Source: Nitrospirales bacterium (GTDB taxonomy: Bacteria > Nitrospirota > Nitrospiria > Nitrospirales > UBA8639). From it: a DNA stretch of 64,000 bases. Positions within the stretch are counted from its first letter, which is position 1. Every line of letters starts with the position of its first letter. Shown one piece after another: positions 40,584-58,100 of the stretch. The DNA lies in contig JALDRJ010000002.1 of assembly GCA_031315865.1 (NCBI GenBank), forward strand, positions 310,001 to 374,000. Reading direction: 5' to 3'. A program made the position numbers and the translations under genes. Below the pieces are notes generated by a model, which did not search any database, was not told the DNA's origin, and worked only from the letters and a program-made list of their open reading frames with translations.

Positions 40584-43500
40584 TTACTTAAAGGCAACGG
40601 GCTTAATTGCACCATCTTCAGATGGGACTACCTTCGCTTCTTGCGCACCAGTATTCACCGCTCCGCTTAGCGGAAGAATACTCTTATCACTTTGAGGCAA
40701 CACCCGTAGCAGTCCCCATTGTCCTGACTGAGAATACGGGAGCCTGGCGTTTCCATAAATATAATCGCCAGGCAGAGCATACACACCACCAGCAGAAGCC
40801 ACAAAGGCATCGATAGATTCTGAACCGGCAAATTCGACAGTACTAATCATATCGGCGCCTGGCAGGAACGGCTCAATCGGCCATTCATGTTTCTCTAATG
40901 TAAACATGCTGTTTTGCTCGCTACTGGCTCCGAACACATGAATTCTGACAGGATCTCCAGCATGTGACATGATCGTAGGAGTAGCCGGATCCTTAGGATC
41001 ATCAACTTCGCAGGGCTGGAACATGCGGCCTAATGAACATCCTTGTGATTCACGGTACAAGTAGGGTTCATTGCGATAGTTAATACCCACCAAACCGGCG
41101 ACATTTTGCACGTATGGCATGAAGCTCGTTCCGATGATGTTATCTTCATCTTGGAAGAACAGCGCCACATCACGATAGTTTCCTCGTTTTTCGTTTCCTG
41201 CCACAGATTGATCGATCAACACATCTGCTTGCCAGGCATTTTTCAACGAGACATCAGCCCCAGTTTTCGGATCCCGGTACTGAGACCCTTTGGGGCCGAT
41301 AATGATGGCTCCAAACAGGCCGTTTCGAGGATTCATCGCTACGTTGCCAAAGTCCCATACCAACGTTTGCGTCTCTCCAATAAATGGATCAGCATAGTAT
41401 GTGTATGTCCGACTTTCTCCCGGAGCAATGGTTTGATCACCAGGATTCTGTCCCAGATTAACCCCTTGTGAATCCTTGGGGTCAAACGCCAGGCCAAAGG
41501 CTGAGAATGAAGCACGACTTTCTTTCATTTTGTTGGTCAAATTAACTTGAATACAATCTCCAACGTTGGCGCGTAAGGTTAAAGGCATGGGTTGATATTC
41601 ACCCGAAACCTTGCTGACCTCCTCCTCCAAGACGTAAATTTTTGCGTCGGGGTTTTGTATCTCAATTTTCCGTTCAAAGTCGACCTCAATAGCATCTTCC
41701 ACGTTCGGATTAAAACTCATGGACGGGAAGTCGATCGCAGCCACGTTAAATGCTCTCATTGGCGCATCTTTAGGACACACTGGAAGCGGTTCAGGCATAC
41801 CTTCTTTTCCATATGCCTTATTCGGAAGAGGCTGGAGGTCATCCACCGGCTTGTCGAGCACTCGAATCAATCCCCACGAACCTTCCGAGAACTTGGAACT
41901 TCTGCCATTGAAATACATATAGTCACCTGGAAGATGCCGTGGTCCCCCAGCTTCCGGAACAACAAGATCATATCGTTCAGCAATTCCAATATGTATGGAA
42001 TTTTTTCTGTTCGCTTCTTGTGCATACCGTTCAGTCCAGAATGTATGTCCTGAGACGGTAAACACATTACTTTCATTCATCGTTACATCGATCAGGCGGA
42101 ACACGACCGCATCCCCCAAGTAAGCCCTGATCGTTGGCGTGCTGGGTTCGCCGTGGATAGCGCTGCTAAAAAGCTGAGATGTATCGGAATTGTTCGCCAA
42201 ACGTTGAGCAAAAGGTTCGGCTCGGAAATTGAAGGCACCGCCCGTTGTATGGGTACCGCCATTCAAGAATGGCATCGGTGTCATCTTGATCTTTTCGTTC
42301 GGTGGCATGATGAACGAGACCGTTCGTCCAGCCTCCAAAGCGACTTCGATCGGCTGACCAGGAGGATTCCCTGCCGTAACGACATTGACGGTATGGGGAA
42401 CGGTATCCATGACATGTACCATCAACTCACGGAAACTTCCTGCCACATCATGACCAACCCGCTCAACCGTATGAATATCCGCGACTAGTCCTGTCCGGAT
42501 AGGCTTTCCAGTCTTTGGATCATGCCATGTTGACCCAAAAGGTTCGATAAGGAACGTACACACCGCTCCATGCGGCCACGTCGTTCCACCAAATGCATGA
42601 TCATGACAGAAGACTGATCCAACATCTGCGTCAGCCCAGAATCTTTGACGGACAAACTCAACGGTCACGATATCATCAACAGGATGATCGTGGGCTAGCG
42701 GTGTATCAAAAGTCAGCGTTTCTCCGCCCCCCCCTGCTGCGGGAGCCGATGACGATCCCTCTCCACCAGGAACCTTCAACGTTTTCCCGACTCTGATAAG
42801 GTTTGGATTGTCTATTCCGTTAAGGTCTCTCAGTTCGTTGACCGACACGCCAAGAGACGACGCGATCGCACCAAGTGAATCACCAGGATTTACTGTGTAG
42901 GAACCAGTTCCCGATGAGGCGGCCGACAAGGAGCTACCAGACCCTCCAATAGCGACAATCCGCTTAATTTCATCTTTCCCCACATTATCGACTCCGACAA
43001 GAATCAGAGTTCCAACATGGTACTGTTTCGCATTCGTGATATGTATGGTTTTATCGCCTTTCTTCGCGGCTTTCGTGAGCTTAGCGTTCATCGGAACAGG
43101 AAGGCCTTTTTTCTTTTCCTTCTCAAACATCGTAAATGGCCTCATGGACTGCTCATATGAGAATCCAGAAATGACCCCGTCCGATGCTTGGTTATCAAAC
43201 TGCACAAAATGAAAATGCGTGTTGATCTTGGATGACTGGAAATTCGTGATATCATCGTCTTCCCACTCGCTTGTCAGAGTCCAGTCCATACAATCATACA
43301 TGTTGGCACGAAACACGAGAGGATATTTCAAATCATTATTGGCTCGAATAGCTTCTTCTTCATCATGCACAACATAGAGCAACCCATTGGGATCAACGAT
43401 AGCTTCCTGATCTCCTTGAGCCGCAGATAATTCAACTGGGAGTTTAATGAAATGAATATTATACTTCTGCGATCCAGCCCTTTCCGGACAAAGGCTCCAT

Positions 43501-45731
43501 CGCCCGTTTTCTCCAGGCTTCGCTGGATTCACCGTTCTCTTGCCTTGGTCATCAACATGAATCATTTCCAACCATGGCGCCGGATTGTGATCCGGTGCGA
43601 ATGGAACGCGCTTTCCGAAGTGCGGCGTTAACCAGGGCCACGCCACTTTTCCGGTCGTTGGTTCAAACCAGATCGCCCGTCGCTCTCCGGCTGTATATCC
43701 TTGCCATTCCGGATGATACTTTGGGTTAGGACCAATATCGGCTTCCTTTTCACTCATAGCCTTATTGCCGTCCCAAACCCAGTCAATCACCGTCGCATCA
43801 TATGCTTTCAATTGTCCTTCCTGATCATCCTTATGACCCGGTTTCCCCTGAGTCACCAACTGCATCTCGACCCAATCCTTGATGTTCACGACTCTCGGGT
43901 CAGATTTCCAATCGCTCTTTCCGCTCGCTACGATATTAAATTTTGTCCCAAACCAATTGACAGTCGTCCCAACCAATTTGTCAGAACTCACAGGCTTATG
44001 GATTCGATCCAGACGGTCCGGGAGTTCACGCAACGGAGGCATGACATCGTTATGGAACCCTGGCACTTGCAGGGTGTTGTACACACGCCAATAGCCCCAC
44101 ATTCCTGACACGTAGTGATGAGCCACATGACAATGGAATAAAAAGTCTCCAGCCAACCATTGGCAAAGCCCTGAGCCACATTCCGTCTCAAGATCCAACG
44201 CTTCTGATGGCCCAATCACTTCGACGTCCACGCGGTCGGACTTCGTTCGGATGACAGGATATTTCACTGGACCATTTTGACCAGTATTCCAAACCGGCAT
44301 TTGAGTCGCACGGGGACTTCTTTGCCAGCGAATCGATCCACCATGGGGGTGGTGAGAATGGAACACTTCCGAACCACCGTGAACAATCCTGAATTTGGCA
44401 GGATCCCCCAGGTAGCTTCGAGGAATCGTAGGGGATGCATCGCCGAATGTATAACTGCTATACCCCATCGATTCATCTTCAAATCCAAAATATTCATGCT
44501 GCACATGCATGTTGTTAATGCCAAACGGTTCACTCCTGAAATTCAGGGCTCGTGCTCCAGGACGATAGGTATCCGTCAATGGGTCACGTTGTGGCAAAAA
44601 ATCTCCATGTTTGTTAACTGGCCGAAACGCTTCGTCACCAATTTCATGATAAATTAACACAAACTCCCGAAAATCAGGACCTTTGGGCGTGTCAATCATG
44701 ACTTGCCAACCACTTCTTGCTTCCGTCGCAGAACCAGTACCAAGTGGTTCCCAATACTTCGAGCCGGCAGGTTCGACAACAAATACGCCCATCATACCAA
44801 GAACCGTCAACTCCCGATCGTTGCTATAGGAATGAAATTGTTTCGCACCTTCCTGAGAGTCGGGATGGATATACCATTCCATTTCAATCTCAGATGATCC
44901 TTTTGGCGCATCGCCTTCTTCATCTTCCTCTTCACTTGCACCGGCAGCAATCGCATCGGGGTTGGTCGTAGTGGCAGGCTGCCCGGTCTTGCTCATGACC
45001 ATGTCAGAACCGTTGATGTGCAAGCTGACATCTTCCCCAAATTCTAGTTGATTCCGTAATGTAAATTTGACGCAATCACCTTGGTTGCCTCGAATGACCA
45101 AAGGTTGAATCCACTGGTCTTGGATGCCGTTTTTCACGGCTCCGGGGTCCATATGGCCTTCGGATTCTCGAGCTTCCGCATTTTTAGCTTCTTCTTCGCG
45201 GACTTTCTCGATGTTTTCCGTCAGGACGTACATATACCCAGGGTAATAATCCAGCCATTGATTCAACGTGACTTCTACGTTGATAGCAGAAATATCATAA
45301 TGTTTGACGGGAGCAGTCTTAGGACACAGCCCGCCTTTGCCGGAAACCGGCTCCTGCCCTGAACTGGACATCAAGAGTCCATTTTCTTTCCCGGCACCAT
45401 ACTGATGCATCATCGACATCGTATTAAAGGCTCCGGTATTAGGAGAATGAGCCATCTCCTTCTCCATTTGCTTCATCATTCGTTGATGCTGAAGCTCGAC
45501 CAAAGCAGCCCGTTCAGCCCGGCCTTCCACCGAATTTTCAACGATGGTCTGGCCTTTGAGTTTTTCTGCCCAAGCCGGGGCATCTTGATGTGTCATCCCC
45601 GTTTTGTGGACCATGTGATTGTTTGATTCCACATCTTCAGCTGATGCTGAAGCAAACGGCAAGAAAACGACGGCAGCTAAAATACTCAGCCACCTGAGTG
45701 ATGGATACGTTGATACCTTCTGATAAAACAT
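40584..45731 (-). CDS. Giant multicopper oxidase with internal LysM domain
   Basis: A 1715-aa exported protein with a signal peptide (1-31). Copper-site motifs occur in several places: HSHHPHGG near 457-464, the trinuclear/type 1 motif FHCHVAHHYVSGMWGYW starting at 532, THFHFVQFDNQASDG near 837-850 and FCHDHAFGG near 1040. Its C-terminal third has further cupredoxin-like blocks (GYWRVYN- and GQWGLLRVL-type strands) with fewer His, probably structural. A LysM domain (about 944-987, YTVNPGDSLGAIASSLGVSV) is inserted between Gly/Ser-rich linkers. Size and the HFHFVQFD block recall the MofA/McoA/MnxG type of very large bacterial multicopper oxidases linked with Mn(II) oxidation; that match is from memory. 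A strong AAGGAGG site precedes the ATG. Confidence 0.88.
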   Translation of the reverse strand: MFYQKVSTYPSLRWLSILAAVVFLPFASASAEDVESNNHMVHKTGMTHQDAPAWAEKLKGQTIVENSVEGRAERAALVELQHQRMMKQMEKEMAHSPNTGAFNTMSMMHQYGAGKENGLLMSSSGQEPVSGKGGLCPKTAPVKHYDISAINVEVTLNQWLDYYPGYMYVLTENIEKVREEEAKNAEARESEGHMDPGAVKNGIQDQWIQPLVIRGNQGDCVKFTLRNQLEFGEDVSLHINGSDMVMSKTGQPATTTNPDAIAAGASEEEDEEGDAPKGSSEIEMEWYIHPDSQEGAKQFHSYSNDRELTVLGMMGVFVVEPAGSKYWEPLGTGSATEARSGWQVMIDTPKGPDFREFVLIYHEIGDEAFRPVNKHGDFLPQRDPLTDTYRPGARALNFRSEPFGINNMHVQHEYFGFEDESMGYSSYTFGDASPTIPRSYLGDPAKFRIVHGGSEVFHSHHPHGGSIRWQRSPRATQMPVWNTGQNGPVKYPVIRTKSDRVDVEVIGPSEALDLETECGSGLCQWLAGDFLFHCHVAHHYVSGMWGYWRVYNTLQVPGFHNDVMPPLRELPDRLDRIHKPVSSDKLVGTTVNWFGTKFNIVASGKSDWKSDPRVVNIKDWVEMQLVTQGKPGHKDDQEGQLKAYDATVIDWVWDGNKAMSEKEADIGPNPKYHPEWQGYTAGERRAIWFEPTTGKVAWPWLTPHFGKRVPFAPDHNPAPWLEMIHVDDQGKRTVNPAKPGENGRWSLCPERAGSQKYNIHFIKLPVELSAAQGDQEAIVDPNGLLYVVHDEEEAIRANNDLKYPLVFRANMYDCMDWTLTSEWEDDDITNFQSSKINTHFHFVQFDNQASDGVISGFSYEQSMRPFTMFEKEKKKGLPVPMNAKLTKAAKKGDKTIHITNAKQYHVGTLILVGVDNVGKDEIKRIVAIGGSGSSLSAASSGTGSYTVNPGDSLGAIASSLGVSVNELRDLNGIDNPNLIRVGKTLKVPGGEGSSSAPAAGGGGETLTFDTPLAHDHPVDDIVTVEFVRQRFWADADVGSVFCHDHAFGGTTWPHGAVCTFLIEPFGSTWHDPKTGKPIRTGLVADIHTVERVGHDVAGSFRELMVHVMDTVPHTVNVVTAGNPPGQPIEVALEAGRTVSFIMPPNEKIKMTPMPFLNGGTHTTGGAFNFRAEPFAQRLANNSDTSQLFSSAIHGEPSTPTIRAYLGDAVVFRLIDVTMNESNVFTVSGHTFWTERYAQEANRKNSIHIGIAERYDLVVPEAGGPRHLPGDYMYFNGRSSKFSEGSWGLIRVLDKPVDDLQPLPNKAYGKEGMPEPLPVCPKDAPMRAFNVAAIDFPSMSFNPNVEDAIEVDFERKIEIQNPDAKIYVLEEEVSKVSGEYQPMPLTLRANVGDCIQVNLTNKMKESRASFSAFGLAFDPKDSQGVNLGQNPGDQTIAPGESRTYTYYADPFIGETQTLVWDFGNVAMNPRNGLFGAIIIGPKGSQYRDPKTGADVSLKNAWQADVLIDQSVAGNEKRGNYRDVALFFQDEDNIIGTSFMPYVQNVAGLVGINYRNEPYLYRESQGCSLGRMFQPCEVDDPKDPATPTIMSHAGDPVRIHVFGASSEQNSMFTLEKHEWPIEPFLPGADMISTVEFAGSESIDAFVASAGGVYALPGDYIYGNARLPYSQSGQWGLLRVLPQSDKSILPLSGAVNTGAQEAKVVPSEDGAIKPVAFK

Positions 45732-48877: not shown

Positions 48878-49372
48878 CTATCGCAAAATCAACAATTGCC
48901 CACCCAAGTGAGCATCATGGAGTTGGCATTTGTATTGTAACGTGTTGCTTGAAGTCACATACGTCAGATCACTGATTGGAATACCAATGTACTTCGTTTC
49001 TCCAGGCTTCAGAACCACTTGAGCATGCATGGACCACGGGCCAGAATGAGCACTGCTCGCGGATAAATCAAACCCATGCTCCCCATCTAAATTATTAGTG
49101 ACTTTAATCAAAATTGGACGGCCTCCACGCGCACCGGTACCAGATCTCGTGAGGTTTAACACAGCGGTCGGTGGGTACCAAACTTTTTTTCCACCCACTT
49201 CCATCGCTATAAACTCAAGATCAACGTCCAACGCTCTAAAGGATTGTCCCACCACGGATCCCGATTCGAGATCACCAATTTCCACACCACCCGACTGCAG
49301 GGCCAATGCGGCAGTTGAACCAGCCGCAACTAGCACAAGACTTAAAAGGACGGATAGAAGCACTCTGTGCAT
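48878..49372 (-). CDS. Exported cupredoxin-like protein
   Basis: A 164-aa protein with a signal peptide (1-24, ending ALALQ). The mature part has alternating beta strands of a cupredoxin, with a likely His ligand in DGEHGFDLSA and the C-terminal loop YKCQLHDAHLGGQLLILR. The loop gives Cys-x2-His and then His where blue-copper proteins usually have Met as axial ligand. It has a strong GGGGAGG ribosome site. Probably a small periplasmic electron carrier or copper-binding protein, in line with the other copper proteins of the region. Confidence 0.75.
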   Translation of the reverse strand: MHRVLLSVLLSLVLVAAGSTAALALQSGGVEIGDLESGSVVGQSFRALDVDLEFIAMEVGGKKVWYPPTAVLNLTRSGTGARGGRPILIKVTNNLDGEHGFDLSASSAHSGPWSMHAQVVLKPGETKYIGIPISDLTYVTSSNTLQYKCQLHDAHLGGQLLILR

Positions 49373-49657: not shown

Positions 49658-50167
49658 CTACAGTTGTATCTTCTCCTGCTCTTTCCCTGGAATAGGCTTT
49701 CCTGCGGACTCCAATAATTCACGAGAAACCACGATAGGCGTATGAAAATGTATGGCTAACGCGATGGCATCTGATGAGCGACTATCAAAAATCTTCGTGT
49801 GCCCATTCAAGGACAGCGTCATCGTTCCATAATAAATCCCATCTTTCAAAGAAATAAACACCCGGTCAACCTTGACGCTATAAGCTTCAAGAATCGTATG
49901 CATCAGATCATGTGAAAGAGGTCGAGGAAACATGAAGCCGCTTAAGGCACCTTGAATTGAACCGGCCACGGTCGGGTCCACATAAATTGGAATCGCTTGC
50001 TGTCCGACTTCTAGAAGCACGACCGGCCCATGCGAAGACACATGAACTTCCACCTTTTCGATCACCACTTCTTCAGATTCGAGGGACGATTCTTGCGCGT
50101 AACTACTTACGATCAAGCCACTCCAAAACCACAAAAAGACACAACTCGCGACGACATACCCTCTCAT
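49658..50167 (-). CDS. Exported bifunctional-nuclease (BFN/DUF151) family protein
   Basis: A 169-aa protein with an N-terminal signal (about 4-24) and a BFN domain: VVLLEVGQQAIPIYVDPTVAGSI, SHDLMHTILEAYSVKVDRVFI, YYGTMTLSLNG and the core SRSSDAIALAIHFHTPIVVS. Family members have been reported as nucleases in plants, but most bacterial ones are uncharacterised. An exported BFN protein is uncommon in my recollection. The ATG follows AGGAGG at ideal spacing. It lies 41 bases downstream of the MBL-fold gene and is probably cotranscribed with it. Confidence 0.85.
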   Translation of the reverse strand: MRGYVVASCVFLWFWSGLIVSSYAQESSLESEEVVIEKVEVHVSSHGPVVLLEVGQQAIPIYVDPTVAGSIQGALSGFMFPRPLSHDLMHTILEAYSVKVDRVFISLKDGIYYGTMTLSLNGHTKIFDSRSSDAIALAIHFHTPIVVSRELLESAGKPIPGKEQEKIQL

Positions 50168-52137: not shown

Positions 52138-53616
52138 TCACGGACGATTCTGAGAAGACCTGGCTTGACAGGCCAGCACATACCCATCTCGTAAGTCAGC
52201 CGCCTCTTGAACGGCTAACGTTAAACACTCAGGATATTCCACACGAATGAACTCGACGAAGTAATGAACTTTGACGAGGAAAAAGTCATACGGTTCAGAG
52301 AAACTATGCGGATGACTGTACCAGAAACAGAACAGCCCCTCGCAGCCACCCCCCAATGACGCCAGGGCTTGCATCGTGGCGGGAAACATCTCCTGAAACT
52401 TCCCCCCCCATTCAAAAATCTCATAGGGCAAATAGTCTTGGCGATAGACATTCAACCCCGTCGGATCGACGGTTGAGAGAAGATTAGTTTGCGGGAACGT
52501 CGAGTCGCTTGTGCATTGGGTCAACATCTCGACATAATGACGATATTGAATTTCGAGCTGCGGATCTTGGGGAAAGTGACGAGGTGCCTCGGCGATGGAG
52601 ACTTCGCGTGAAACCGGATCATGATCGATGGCATCGGCAAGTTTTCTTCGTTGTTCTTGCTCCCATGCCGTACATTGCTCACCAAGCCTCCTAAATTCCT
52701 GAATAATGCAAGAGATGGCCTTTGTATCAACCTCAAGGGCCACTCCCCTGACATTGATCAACCTAGGATGAGCCAACACTTGATTCAGCATCCTGAATAG
52801 CACGTCAGGAATCGGAGAATCGTGTGAATCAAGCCAATTAGGCGGACAGCGATGACGCTGATCCTGACGAAGAACGGCTGGATGAAACCCTAATCCCGCG
52901 ATATGGACCTGTACGACGCGTTCAAGAGGAAATGCCCGTAACAACCCTTCCAGAAAATCTTCGATAGAACTACCTTGCCACGCTCCGGTGTAACGATACA
53001 CGGTCCAAATGTGCCCAATGTCCAGGACAAACCCGCAGGAACATGCTTCTGCAAGGAATCTGAAAAAATCCGCATATGACACCTCCCCAATCGCAAAAAA
53101 GGTCAAAGGAGGAGTTTCTAGTAGAAACAGTGGGCTTGGCAGAGCATGGTCCTCGAATCGTTTATCGAACAACCGTTGAGCCGACCGGACATTGACGGCT
53201 GTCACGTGCGCCGAGGCTTCGGAAAATACTGGAGGCAGATAGGTCCCAAAAGAGTGACCAGCGATCTGTTTTGTCGCGCATTCATGATTCAGCCACGAAC
53301 ACCCTAATTGACGAAGGTGATTCATCGCGATTGTCAATTCATCATGATACCGATAGGAAATTTCCCAATCCGGTTGCGTTACCCATAGTCCATCCGCATG
53401 ATATTCCAGGTACGTGGAAGGATTTCGGTGCCGCACCTCTTGCAAGGCGAGCTGGTCCGCTTTAAACATCTCTAAATATCCATACGATAATGCCTGTTCT
53501 TCGAGTTGCTCGGTGAGATCGAATACATCGGGGGAATACACATCCACGGACAGTCCAAGACCGTGGAACGGAATCTTCGACACGCGTTGGCGAAACTCAA
53601 TGTCAAAACTATTCAT
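52138..53616 (-). CDS. MNIO (DUF692) peptide-modifying-enzyme homologue fused to a DUF2063-like domain
   Basis: A 492-aa soluble protein. Residues 12-300 show the DUF692 TIM-barrel layout of multinuclear non-haem iron oxidases (MbnB, TglH, BufB): GLGLSVDVYSPD, YLEMFKAD, YHADGLWV with His73, NHECATKQ (His111, Glu112), LLETPP (Glu167), VLDIGHI (Asp199, His202), VVQVHIAGL (His238), LDSHDSPIPD (Asp263, His265) and ALEVD (Glu295, Asp297). After a linker, residues about 350-475 resemble the partner domain DUF2063: GLNVYRQDYLPYEIFEWGGKF, EMFPATMQAL, WYSHPHSFSEP and later FVEFIRVEYP. Known enzymes oxidise Cys or Asn residues of small peptides, often for copper handling. No precursor peptide was found nearby. 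The ATG at 53616 follows CAGGTG. Confidence 0.78.
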   Translation of the reverse strand: MNSFDIEFRQRVSKIPFHGLGLSVDVYSPDVFDLTEQLEEQALSYGYLEMFKADQLALQEVRHRNPSTYLEYHADGLWVTQPDWEISYRYHDELTIAMNHLRQLGCSWLNHECATKQIAGHSFGTYLPPVFSEASAHVTAVNVRSAQRLFDKRFEDHALPSPLFLLETPPLTFFAIGEVSYADFFRFLAEACSCGFVLDIGHIWTVYRYTGAWQGSSIEDFLEGLLRAFPLERVVQVHIAGLGFHPAVLRQDQRHRCPPNWLDSHDSPIPDVLFRMLNQVLAHPRLINVRGVALEVDTKAISCIIQEFRRLGEQCTAWEQEQRRKLADAIDHDPVSREVSIAEAPRHFPQDPQLEIQYRHYVEMLTQCTSDSTFPQTNLLSTVDPTGLNVYRQDYLPYEIFEWGGKFQEMFPATMQALASLGGGCEGLFCFWYSHPHSFSEPYDFFLVKVHYFVEFIRVEYPECLTLAVQEAADLRDGYVLACQARSSQNRP

Positions 53617-53684
53617 CCTACACCTGACGCGCTGCACCATCGCGGTGAAAGCAGCTCGCGGACCGATCCAAGACCAGCAGTCAA

Positions 53685-53735: not shown

Positions 53736-55166
53736 TCAAGAAGCCGTCGAATGTTGATTGGACATGAGATACTGGTGAATACCGGATGCCGCCTTTCGCC
53801 CTTCGGCAATCGCCCATACAATCAACGAGGCGCCTCGCTTCGTATCACCGGCAGCAAACACTCCATCAACACTTGTCATGAAGTTCTCATCGACTGTCAC
53901 ACAACCTCGAGCGTCACACTGAACGCCAAAGGCATCTAACAATCCTTGCTTCACAGGGCCGGTAAATCCCATCGCTAACAGGACGAGATCGGCATCCAAT
54001 TCAAATTCAGAACCGGCAATAGGGGTAAACTTCCCATTCTCAAACTGAACTTTTTGCGCATGCAGTTTGGTCACCTGTCCCTCTCGACCAGAGAACCTGG
54101 TCGTTGAGACACTCCATTGACGGTCGCACCCTTCTTCATGCGCATGCGAGGTTCGCAATTGCATAGGCCACAGTGGCCAGGGCGTGGATTCCGCTCGGGA
54201 GGGAGGCGGCTCGGCTAGGAGTTCAAATTGATGCACTTCAGCACACCCATGGCGGTGCGCGGTTCCCAAACAATCCGATCCCGTATCGCCTCCGCCAATG
54301 ATCACAACGCGTTTATCTTTGGCGGAAATGGCTTCTTCCACGATCGTATCACCCGCCACTCGCTTGTTCTGCTGCGTTAAATACTCCATCGCGAAGTGGA
54401 CACCCTTTAACTCACGGCCTGGAACAGGCAAATCCCGAGCATGCTCGGCCCCGATCGTCAGCAGAACGGCATCAAAGTCGCTTTGAAGAGCCTGGACAGT
54501 CAGATCAACGCCGACATGAACATTCGTCTCAAAATCCACGCCTTCAACCCGCATTTGATCCAGCCGACGATCCAGCACCCACTTTTCCATCTTAAAATCC
54601 GGGATACCGTATCGAAGGAGGCCCCCGATTCGATCGGCTTTTTCATACACCGTGACACTATGGCCGGCTCTTGCAAGCTGTTGGGCCGCTGCCAGACCAG
54701 CGGGACCTGAGCCCACTACGACGACCTTCTTCCCCGTGGATACGATGGGTAGGATAGGCTCGATCCATCCTTCATCAAAACCCTTGTCAATGATATTCCA
54801 CTCTATCACCCGTATCGACACTGGGTCCTGGTTTATGCCAAGCACACACGACGACTCACAGGGAGCCGGACACAGGCGTCCAGTAAATTCTGGGAAATTA
54901 TTCGTGGTATGGAGGGCTTTCAACGCATCTTTCCATCGCCCCTTATAAACTAAATCATTCCACTCCGGGATAAGATTCACCACCGGACAGCCCGTCGAAC
55001 TCTGACAAAAAGGAACGCCGCAATCCATACAACGCGCGCCTTGCTGCTCCAGACGATCTTCTGAAAAAGGCTCGTACAGCTCTTTCCAATCATGCACTCG
55101 TAACTCGACGGGACGCAGCTTGGGGCCCTCGCGAGCATATTTCATGAAACCTCTTGCATCAGCCAC
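53736..55166 (-). CDS. gltD: Glutamate synthase small subunit
   Basis: A 476-aa NAD(P)H-dependent flavoprotein that feeds electrons to GltB in the GOGAT reaction. It has N-terminal Cys motifs for Fe-S clusters (CMDCGVPFC, then CPAPCESSC), an FAD-binding [17 protein letters not shown], an NAD(P)-binding [11 protein letters not shown], and a C-terminal [17 protein letters not shown] place the start at a GTG (55164-55166) overlapping the gltB stop, which gives the typical N-terminus [15 protein letters not shown]; the longer reading upstream lies inside gltB. Overlap with gltB shows translational coupling. Confidence 0.96.
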
Positions 55167-58100
55167 GACTAGCCATCTCCATTCCACGTTTCGCCTGCGC
55201 TTTTGCGAATGCGATTTTGCGTTCTTGTAACACACGCTTATAATCTCTGGGCATCACTTTCGTAAATTTGGGAAGCATCATGTCCCATGTCTCAAGAATC
55301 ATCCGGCCTTTTCGACTTCCCGTGTACCTGACATGTGACTCGATCATCGTGCGAAGGGTTTGCATGTCATCAGGATGACTCACGTTTTCGAGCTCGACCA
55401 TACCTTGATTACATTGATCTTGAAAAGAGCCATCTTCGTTGAGCACATACGCTTCGCCACCTGACATACCTGCAGCGAAATTCCTGCCGGTCTTTCCTAA
55501 CACCACGACAACTCCACCGGTCATGTATTCACAACCATGATCACCGACCCCTTCGATAACGGCGCGAGCGCCACTGTTTCGGACCGCAAAACGTTCACCC
55601 GCCGTGCCATAAAAATACCCCTCCCCTCCTGTCGCACCGTAGAGAGATGTATTTCCGATCAAAATCGTTTCTTCCGGCACATAGGTCACGCCCTGAGGCG
55701 GCATTACGATGACTTTGCCTCCAGATAAACCTTTGCCAAGATAGTCGTTGGACTCTCCCTCTAAGCACAGGGTAATACCGGGGGATAAAAATGCTCCGAA
55801 GGACTGACCAGCCGATCCCGTAAATCGTATTGTAATAGTGTCTTCAGGCAAACCTGCGACACCATATTTCCTCGCTACATGACTCGAGAGCACCGTCCCC
55901 ACCGTTCGATTGACATTACGGATAGGAAGGTCATGCGAAACTTTCTCCCCCGTTTCAAGGGCTGGACGGCAGAGTTCAATCAGTTGATTATCCAAGATGT
56001 TTGACAAGCCATGATCTTGTGCTTGCACGCAATAGGTCGGCACGGTGCCCTCAACATCGGGTTTCGTCAGGAGGGGCGACAGATCAAGACCATGGGCTTT
56101 CCAATGGTCAACTGCTCGTTGAACGCGCAACTTGTCGACGCGTCCGATCATCTCATTGACCGTTCGAAAGCCAAGTTTGGACATAAGTCCACGAATTTCC
56201 TCTGCCACAAAGAAGAAGTAATTCACGACATGATCGGGATGCCCGGCAAACTGCTTGCGTAATTCTGGGTCCTGAGTCGCCACACCAACGGGACAGGTAT
56301 TGAGATGGCACTTCCGCATCATGATGCACCCCTCAACGATCAAGGGGGCTGTGGAAAACCCAAACTCTTCGGCACCAAGAAGCGCTGCAATCACCACATC
56401 ACGACCTGTGCGCAGCTGTCCATCCGTTTCGACCTTGATTCGCCCTCGCAGGTTGTTCAAGACCAGGGTTTGATGTGTTTCAGCTAAGCCTAACTCCCAA
56501 GGAATTCCGGCATATTTGATCGAAGAAAGCGGAGAAGCTCCGGTGCCCCCGGAATCTCCACTGATGAGAACTTTATCGGCATGCGCTTTTGACACACCGG
56601 CAGCCACGGTTCCCACTCCGACTTCGGAAACAAGTTTCACAGAAATCGCCGCTTCAGGATTTGAATTTTTCAAATCGAAGATCAACTGTGCAAGATCTTC
56701 GATCGAGTAGATGTCATGGTGGGGAGGCGGAGAAATCAATTGAACCCCAGGAGTTGAGTAGCGCAAGGTGGCGATGACTTCATCAACCTTATGCCCTGGC
56801 AATTGTCCCCCTTCCCCGGGTTTTGCGCCCTGAGCCATCTTTATCTGCAATTCTTTGGCATTCACGAGATAATGGGCCGTCACACCAAAACGTCCTGATG
56901 CGACTTGTTTGATATAAGAGTTTTTGGAATCGCCATTTTCGAGGACCGTAAACCGTTCCGGATCTTCTCCACCTTCTCCGGTGTTGCTCTTGGCTCCCAG
57001 TCGATTCATCGCGATTGCGAGCGTTTCATGAGCTTCTTTGCTGATGGCCCCAAACGACATGGCCCCAGTCGTAAAGCGTTTGACGATCTCTTTCGCAGGC
57101 TCAACCTCATCTAAGGGCAACGGCTCTTGTGTGAATTTAAAATCAAAGAGTCCTCGCAACGTCGATCGCCGCTTTTGCTCTTCATTCACGAGCGTCGAGA
57201 ACTCTTCGAACGTTTTGGCGTCGTTCGTCCTCGTGGAATGCTGAAGCTTATAAATCACCTCCGGATTCCAATTATGATGTTCGCCCTGAATGCGATAGTG
57301 AATTTCCCCTCCGAAATCAAGCTGACGAACCGGCACAGGTTGATACGCGAGCGAATGCCTTCGCAACGTCTCCTCCCCGATTTCCCTGATGCCGATGCCG
57401 CCTATGCGCGAGGCTGTTCCTGTAAAATAATGATCGACCAATTTCTGATGTAACCCTAAGGCCTCGAAGATTTGCGCACCACAGTACGATTGCAGCGTTG
57501 AAATGCCCATCTTCGAGAAAATTTTCAATAGTCCTTTATTGACGGCTTTCACAAACTTGCCTTCGGCCGTCTGCGAGTCCACCCCTTCTGGGAAATAGCC
57601 TTCCCGCTCCAAATCGACCAGGGATTCGAACACCAGATAAGGATTCACCGCTCCCGCGCCGTAACCGATCAAACAGGCGAAGTGATGAACATCCCGGGGC
57701 TCTCCCGTTTCCAGAATCAACCCGACCTCGGTACGGGTCTCTTGCCTGATGAGATGGTGATGAACCGCCGAGACACCCAGCAGACTGGGAATCGGCGCCC
57801 ATTCTTCGTCCACGCCTCTGTCGCTCAAGATCAGAAATTTTTCACCTTCCTGAATGGCCTTTGAGGCTTCCTCGCAGAGTTGATCCAAAGCGAGAGCCAA
57901 CCCTTCGGGCCCTTCGGCCACTCGAAATTTCAGCGACAGCGTTTTACTCTTAAAGTTCGGATCGCGGAAATCTCGAATCTTTTGCAGTTCGGCGTTGGTC
58001 AAAATCGGCTGCTGCAATTTAATGCGACGACAGGCTTCTGGTACTTCGGCAATGACATTCGGCTTCGGACCAATGTTGGTCACCAACGACATCACCAAAT

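Follow-up and report, generated by a model that had tools for sequence, protein, structure and literature searches.

MNIO-type iron enzymes normally modify small peptides only with a separate bound partner protein. In a 64,000-nucleotide stretch of a Nitrospirales genome (the window), we found a minus-strand gene (52138..53616; 492 amino acids plus stop) that raises the question of whether such an enzyme and its partner can form one protein, and what that protein would modify.

Gene and barrel domain

The plus strand across 52138-53616 is riddled with stops, and the open reading frame of the fusion lies on the minus strand. An alternative upstream ATG at 53640 would give 500 amino acids, but homologues support the ATG at 53616. 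Its conservation at full length, with 38-55% identity across about a hundred genomes, indicates that the frame is not a chance one. It comprises an MNIO/DUF692 TIM-barrel domain (residues 1-322; 52651..53616, minus strand), a linker (residues 323-344; 52585..52650, minus strand; pLDDT about 61-62 in blocks 331-350, so that the second half is of low confidence) and a C-terminal helical domain (residues 345-492; 52141..52584, minus strand). A profile search identified it as the single MNIO gene of the genome, in which no DUF2063 (PF09836) protein was found. The AlphaFold2 model of the full fusion, built with 66 sequences, had a pLDDT of 90.9 and a pTM of 0.92, and the relative placement of the two domains is therefore confident.

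Residues 6-322 are an MNIO/DUF692 barrel, which confirms what the initial annotation had claimed for about 300 N-terminal residues. PF05114 matched residues 108-299 with 42.6 bits against a cut-off of 25, the family profile aligned to bufferin-type MNIOs with 98.5-99.3% probability in hhalign, and all 66 members matched both bufferin-type and ApyH-type MNIO models. The model resembled TglH best (Z 25.6), followed by MbnB (Z 23.5 and 22.9) and 3bww (Z 21.6); these three proteins made up the seven top structural matches, and other TIM barrels reached at most 18.2. A PDB sequence search with the barrel returned 3bww alone, plus a marginal TglH match, and a tblastn search of plasmids gave barrel fragments of other MNIOs and nothing else.

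C-terminal domain

The C-terminus had initially been likened to DUF2063, the BufC-type partner, on the basis of an Arg-Tyr, Phe-Pro and His-Pro pattern. The pattern is present, and its Phe-Pro is invariably MFP in the 21 Nitrospirales sequences that were aligned first, but the likeness to DUF2063 found no support in any sequence test. PF09836 matched none of the 66 C-terminal domains, and hhalign against seven BufC-type/DUF2063 proteins, with and without the distant clade described below, gave 0.3-0.4% and nothing significant. By these tests the domain is neither a DUF2063 domain nor a partner of PME-type 1 (PF09836 plus RRE). Furthermore, the domain had no Pfam match and no PDB sequence match, and Foldseek alone returned nothing below E 3.

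Folded alone (residues 342-492, AlphaFold2), the domain had a pLDDT of 82.5, and its top PDB match by VIA-align was TglI (8hi7_A, residues 1-156), with Z 5.0 over 129 of 151 residues, an rmsd of 5.3 and 12% identity; the next row had Z 3.5. As a Z of 5.0 is low in absolute terms, we take this match as a structural indication rather than proof. The N-terminal domain of TglI docks on TglH and, according to its authors, has no structural homologue by DALI (PMC10880893). An RRE is absent from the fusion: the models contain no C-terminal strands, and the chain ends with the helical domain, where the RRE of TglI would start. Since PME-type 2 proteins without a full RRE are reported in the main text of PMC12452194, this lack does not exclude PME-type 2. 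The idea of a built-in MNIO partner was thus retained in altered form, in that the domain resembles the N-terminal helical domain of the partner TglI (PME-type 2) and is not of the BufC/DUF2063 type. With moderate confidence, we regard it as a TglI-NTD-like domain with a putative partner role.

The domain might instead be a lineage-specific helical extension serving stability or dimerization, with the enzyme working partner-free or with another protein. The lack of Pfam and PDB sequence matches, the hhalign values against DUF2063 and the low absolute Z would all agree with this, and helical domains are prone to chance structural matches. However, one chain stood above the rest and that chain was TglI, matched over most of the domain. 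In addition, the low-scoring hhalign pieces sit in the DUF2063 register (LxxxQ, vYR...FP and the E of the last helix), and six residues, G404, G405, F411, D444, K449 and E471, are invariant in both clades. We consider a mere extension unlikely, and a partner-like domain the better reading.

Predicted iron site

The ligands of TglH are His71, His107, Glu151, Asp184, Asn187, His216, Asp229, His231 and Glu258 (PMC10880893), and those of VcMbnB correspond to them, with Asp240 as general base in addition (PMC8888699). In a gap-free hhalign register, with the E295-D297 block placed by motif (ALEVD versus LIEWD), the nine positions of the fusion are H73, E112, E167, D199, H202, H238, D263, H265 and E295. 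All are occupied by residues capable of metal binding, and from this alignment their side chains are predicted to bind iron. The nine positions and D297 are identical in 66/66 Nitrospirales sequences and in 7/7 sequences of the distant family.

The two-His Fe1 and Asn Fe3 of characterized MbnB/TglH/HvfB-type MNIOs are absent from the fusion. Glu112 (52138-53616 gene, codon 53281..53283, minus strand) stands at the second Fe1 His position (TglH His107) in all of these sequences, and it is a likelier ligand than the neighbouring H111 because the latter is Gln in some members. His202 (53011..53013, minus strand) stands at the Fe3 Asn position (TglH Asn187, HvfB Asn175), giving an invariant D199-x-x-H202 instead of DxxN in both clades. 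These two differences weigh against reading the fusion as an MNIO holoenzyme, the more so as one of them concerns the iron to which the thiolate of the substrate binds. The segment E295-V-D297 (52726..52734, minus strand), also invariant, combines an iron-ligand Glu with an Asp at the general-base position of MbnB (Asp240). The LLETPP and VLDIGHI blocks singled out as variants by the initial annotation are both present, but only the latter is a ligand change (Asn to His202 in its DIGH segment), since LLETPP keeps the bridging Glu E167. The other ligand change, His to Glu112, was not in that annotation.

Instead of an oxidase, the barrel could be a hydrolase or isomerase from the wider endonuclease IV/xylose-isomerase-like superfamily that has retained the metal site. 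Endonuclease IV is among the Foldseek matches of the barrel (3aam, E 3.5e-7), the D-x-x-H at Fe3 resembles endonuclease IV, and 7 of the 66 members weakly match the phosphodiesterase CbiR (best E 0.028). Against this, all seven best structural matches are TglH, MbnB and 3bww, PF05114 scores over its cut-off, every member matches the MNIO models, the Asp of the MbnB general base is present and the C-terminus resembles an MNIO partner. A hydrolase or isomerase is accordingly rather improbable, and we treat the barrel as that of a putative MNIO oxidase.

Distribution and phylogeny

The fusion was found in 104 of 147 relatives (98/124 of those of good quality), among them Candidatus Nitrospira defluvii and numerous further Nitrospira. 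More distant fusion homologues occur in a family of the same phylum (f22), which is probably leptospirillal. A midpoint-rooted tree that contained only fused proteins and bufferin-type MNIOs grouped the fused ones in a single clade (support 0.72) apart from the bufferin MNIOs. In the sense of a separate clade with its own ligand signature, the proposal of a distinct class of putative enzymes is justified.

Stand-alone BufB-type MNIOs are accessory genes, present in 31 of 396 Nitrospirota genomes. Some genomes of the window's family (G001, G005 and G016) lack the fusion and carry a stand-alone BufB-type MNIO. In others both are missing, so that there is no clean pattern of replacement.

Relation to known systems and proposed holoenzyme

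The closest known system is TglHI of Pseudomonas syringae (8hi7; PMC10880893), which has the nearest barrel fold and, in TglI, the best match of the C-terminal domain. TglHI consists of two chains, with an RRE in TglI, whereas the fusion is one chain without an RRE; where the fusion has Glu112 and His202, TglH has His107 and Asn187, and the Asp general base present in the fusion (D297) is missing from TglH. MbnB-MbnC shares the ligand positions and the Asp general base but differs in having two chains, an adjacent precursor gene, mbnA, and the canonical two-His Fe1. The HvfB-HvfC/BufB-BufC maturases of bufferins and oxazolins also pair an MNIO with a partner (PMC13419390 and the main text of PMC12452194). 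As described there, the natural forms, unlike the fusion, are separate proteins with a DUF2063 plus RRE partner and an adjacent precursor gene. In an engineered HvfB-HvfC fusion, the domains follow each other as they do in the natural one.

Other multidomain MNIOs carry other added domains, as in MNIO-nitroreductase fusions and in ChrH with its extra domain. MovX of Vibrio is an MNIO whose fused C-terminal domain possibly replaces the partner, as in the fusion, but that domain is of the winged-helix/RRE type, whereas ours is helical, TglI-like and without an RRE. A 2026 preprint names MovX and ChrH as exceptions (PMC13419390). In a 2025 survey that covered about 14,000 MNIOs (PMC12452194), the main text reports on MovX and on fusions of an MNIO with a nitroreductase, but apparently on no MNIO-partner fusion, and a text search for 'Nitrosp' gave no hit. 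Judged by that main text, a natural MNIO-partner fusion appears to be previously undescribed.

Our results favour the view that the fusion is probably a single-chain MNIO holoenzyme with its partner built in, with a presumed oxidative chemistry and substrate type. With two or three irons bound, the barrel (6-322) would use O2 to oxidize one residue, most probably a Cys, in a peptide or protein made by the ribosome. The TglI-like domain would take the part played by the separate partner of TglHI and HvfBC, docking on the barrel, closing its cavity and helping the iron cluster to reach its active mixed-valent state, with the fusion locking the ratio of barrel to partner at 1:1. HvfB depends on HvfC to reach the mixed-valent Fe(II)/Fe(III) state of its cluster, and the engineered fusion, in which HvfC is attached by its N-terminus to the C-terminus of HvfB, surpasses the two co-expressed proteins in activity (2026 preprint, PMC13419390). 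In the simplest view, an HvfB-HvfC-like fusion may have become fixed in these bacteria, with the docking domain retained and no RRE. Substrate recognition would then fall to the helical domain and the barrel rather than to a leader-binding RRE; what is recognized may be the fold of the substrate itself or a short motif, in keeping with a substrate encoded elsewhere.

The fusion bears on why MNIOs need a partner, a matter on which the role of HvfC was found in 2026 with an engineered protein (PMC13419390). Partners have been proposed to serve both cluster activation and leader binding; a natural fusion that has no RRE sets these two functions apart and offers a stable 1:1 protein for spectroscopy and structural work. 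As both ligand swaps are invariant in the two clades, they provide a direct test of the roles of Fe1 and Fe3. Furthermore, the near-universal presence of the fusion in nitrite-oxidizing Nitrospiraceae without a precursor cluster points to a new peptide or protein modification in major nitrifiers.

Substrate search and genomic context

No precursor gene and no Cys-rich secreted reading frame was found beside the fusion in the loci of the window's family, in agreement with the initial annotation, which had seen no short Cys-rich peptide gene nearby. The search that it proposed for DUF2282-like peptides elsewhere in the genome found none: the DUF2282 bufferin precursor is absent from the window's genome and present in only 1 of 60 relatives. 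TIGR04222 had no match in 31 genomes. PF04738, the marker of the PEARL route as in 3-thiaglutamate, likewise had no match in 31 genomes, and control genomes were equally silent.

These searches bear on the possibility that the fusion simply matures copper bufferins, with a known bufferin from elsewhere in the genome as its substrate. Some relatives do have bufferin operons, and BufB-type MNIOs occur in the phylum as noted above; one Nitrospirales genome that also carries the fusion has a complete operon of DUF2282, MNIO, DUF2063 and DoxX (L113:1933-4394). The near absence of DUF2282, the absence of TIGR04222 and the position of the fusion clade apart from bufferin MNIOs in the tree make this very unlikely.

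We found three genomic contexts in three families. In the window's family (f1), gltB and gltD precede the fusion on its strand, an order seen in 8/8 loci examined; the gltD-like neighbour lies directly upstream (53736..55235, minus strand). Neither an Rfam element nor a promoter- or terminator-like site above chance was found in the 119-base gap behind gltD. In the Nitrospiraceae (f3), a dihydrouridine synthase gene (Dus) comes next in 72 of 80 loci, its start overlapping or abutting the end of the fusion, and Maf follows in 71 of the 80. At one such locus (L063:7959-12222), the fusion, Dus and Maf are followed by a gene for a secreted protein of about 224 amino acids without a Pfam match. The third context, in f22, is the region of a His-rich peptide. 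A tRNA or nucleotide modification pathway, to which the Dus-Maf operon might point, is hardly credible, as the gltBD context of the window's family and the TPR/His-rich peptide region of f22 have no Dus or Maf beside the fusion and the packing of housekeeping genes into operons accounts for the order.

In G001, of the window's genus, the fusion is cleanly missing between gltD and a convergent lipoprotein-like gene, and the other neighbours are kept. The gltBD genes, the cupredoxin-like protein, the MBL hydrolase and the BFN-domain protein are largely retained in fusion-less genomes, and these candidates for obligate partners were rejected. Because neighbours remain where the fusion is absent, those in the window are not obligate substrates or partners. 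The contexts differing by family, together with G001, indicate that the Nitrospirales substrate is probably encoded in trans.

In f22, we found a gene for a secreted peptide of about 100 residues, Ala/Pro-rich and then His-rich, with two Cys and the invariant core CNHHxxYYxRHHRCYP (for example L114:7409-7723, L116:5874-6182 and L118:1566-1877). Of the 21 f22 genomes that have the enzyme, 20 carry this gene; weak signal-peptide matches apart, it occurs nowhere else in 396. In 18 of the 20 genomes it lies 0.3-7.5 kb upstream on the same strand, and in two on another contig. L115 (G155), otherwise complete, is the only f22 genome with the fusion but without the peptide. Full-length and core-only profiles gave no credible homologue in Nitrospirales; a match in G050 (L152) was rejected, being an Ala/Pro-rich secreted peptide without the Cys core. 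Most MNIO precursors have Sec signals and Cys motifs, according to the main text of PMC12452194, and the peptide fits this description. Part of its linkage to the fusion may be plain synteny, and we regard it as a candidate substrate that may serve as a lead, not as proof.

The proposed enzyme would thus find its substrate in trans in Nitrospirales and possibly, in f22, in this nearby His-rich two-Cys peptide. More broadly, and more tentatively, the fusions may constitute a class of self-contained MNIO holoenzymes of Nitrospirales and of a probably leptospirillal family, with a Glu-Fe1/His-Fe3 site and an RRE-less partner, whose substrate is supplied in trans, outside a RiPP cluster, and is possibly a protein or a secreted peptide that binds metal; we put this at slightly short of an even chance.

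The initial annotation had also spoken of a copper-rich genome; this context is no evidence of function, given that the neighbours, including the cupredoxin-like gene, stay in fusion-less genomes. That gene (48878-49372, minus strand) encodes a secreted protein of 164 amino acids with a CxLHxAHLGGQLL end and no Pfam match, highly conserved in the window's family and kept where the fusion is lost. Nearby, 49658-50167 (minus strand) encodes a bifunctional-nuclease (BFN) domain protein with an apparent N-terminal secretion signal, and 40584-45731 (minus strand) a multicopper-oxidase-like protein of 1715 amino acids with a LysM domain, which is conserved near the locus in the window's family.
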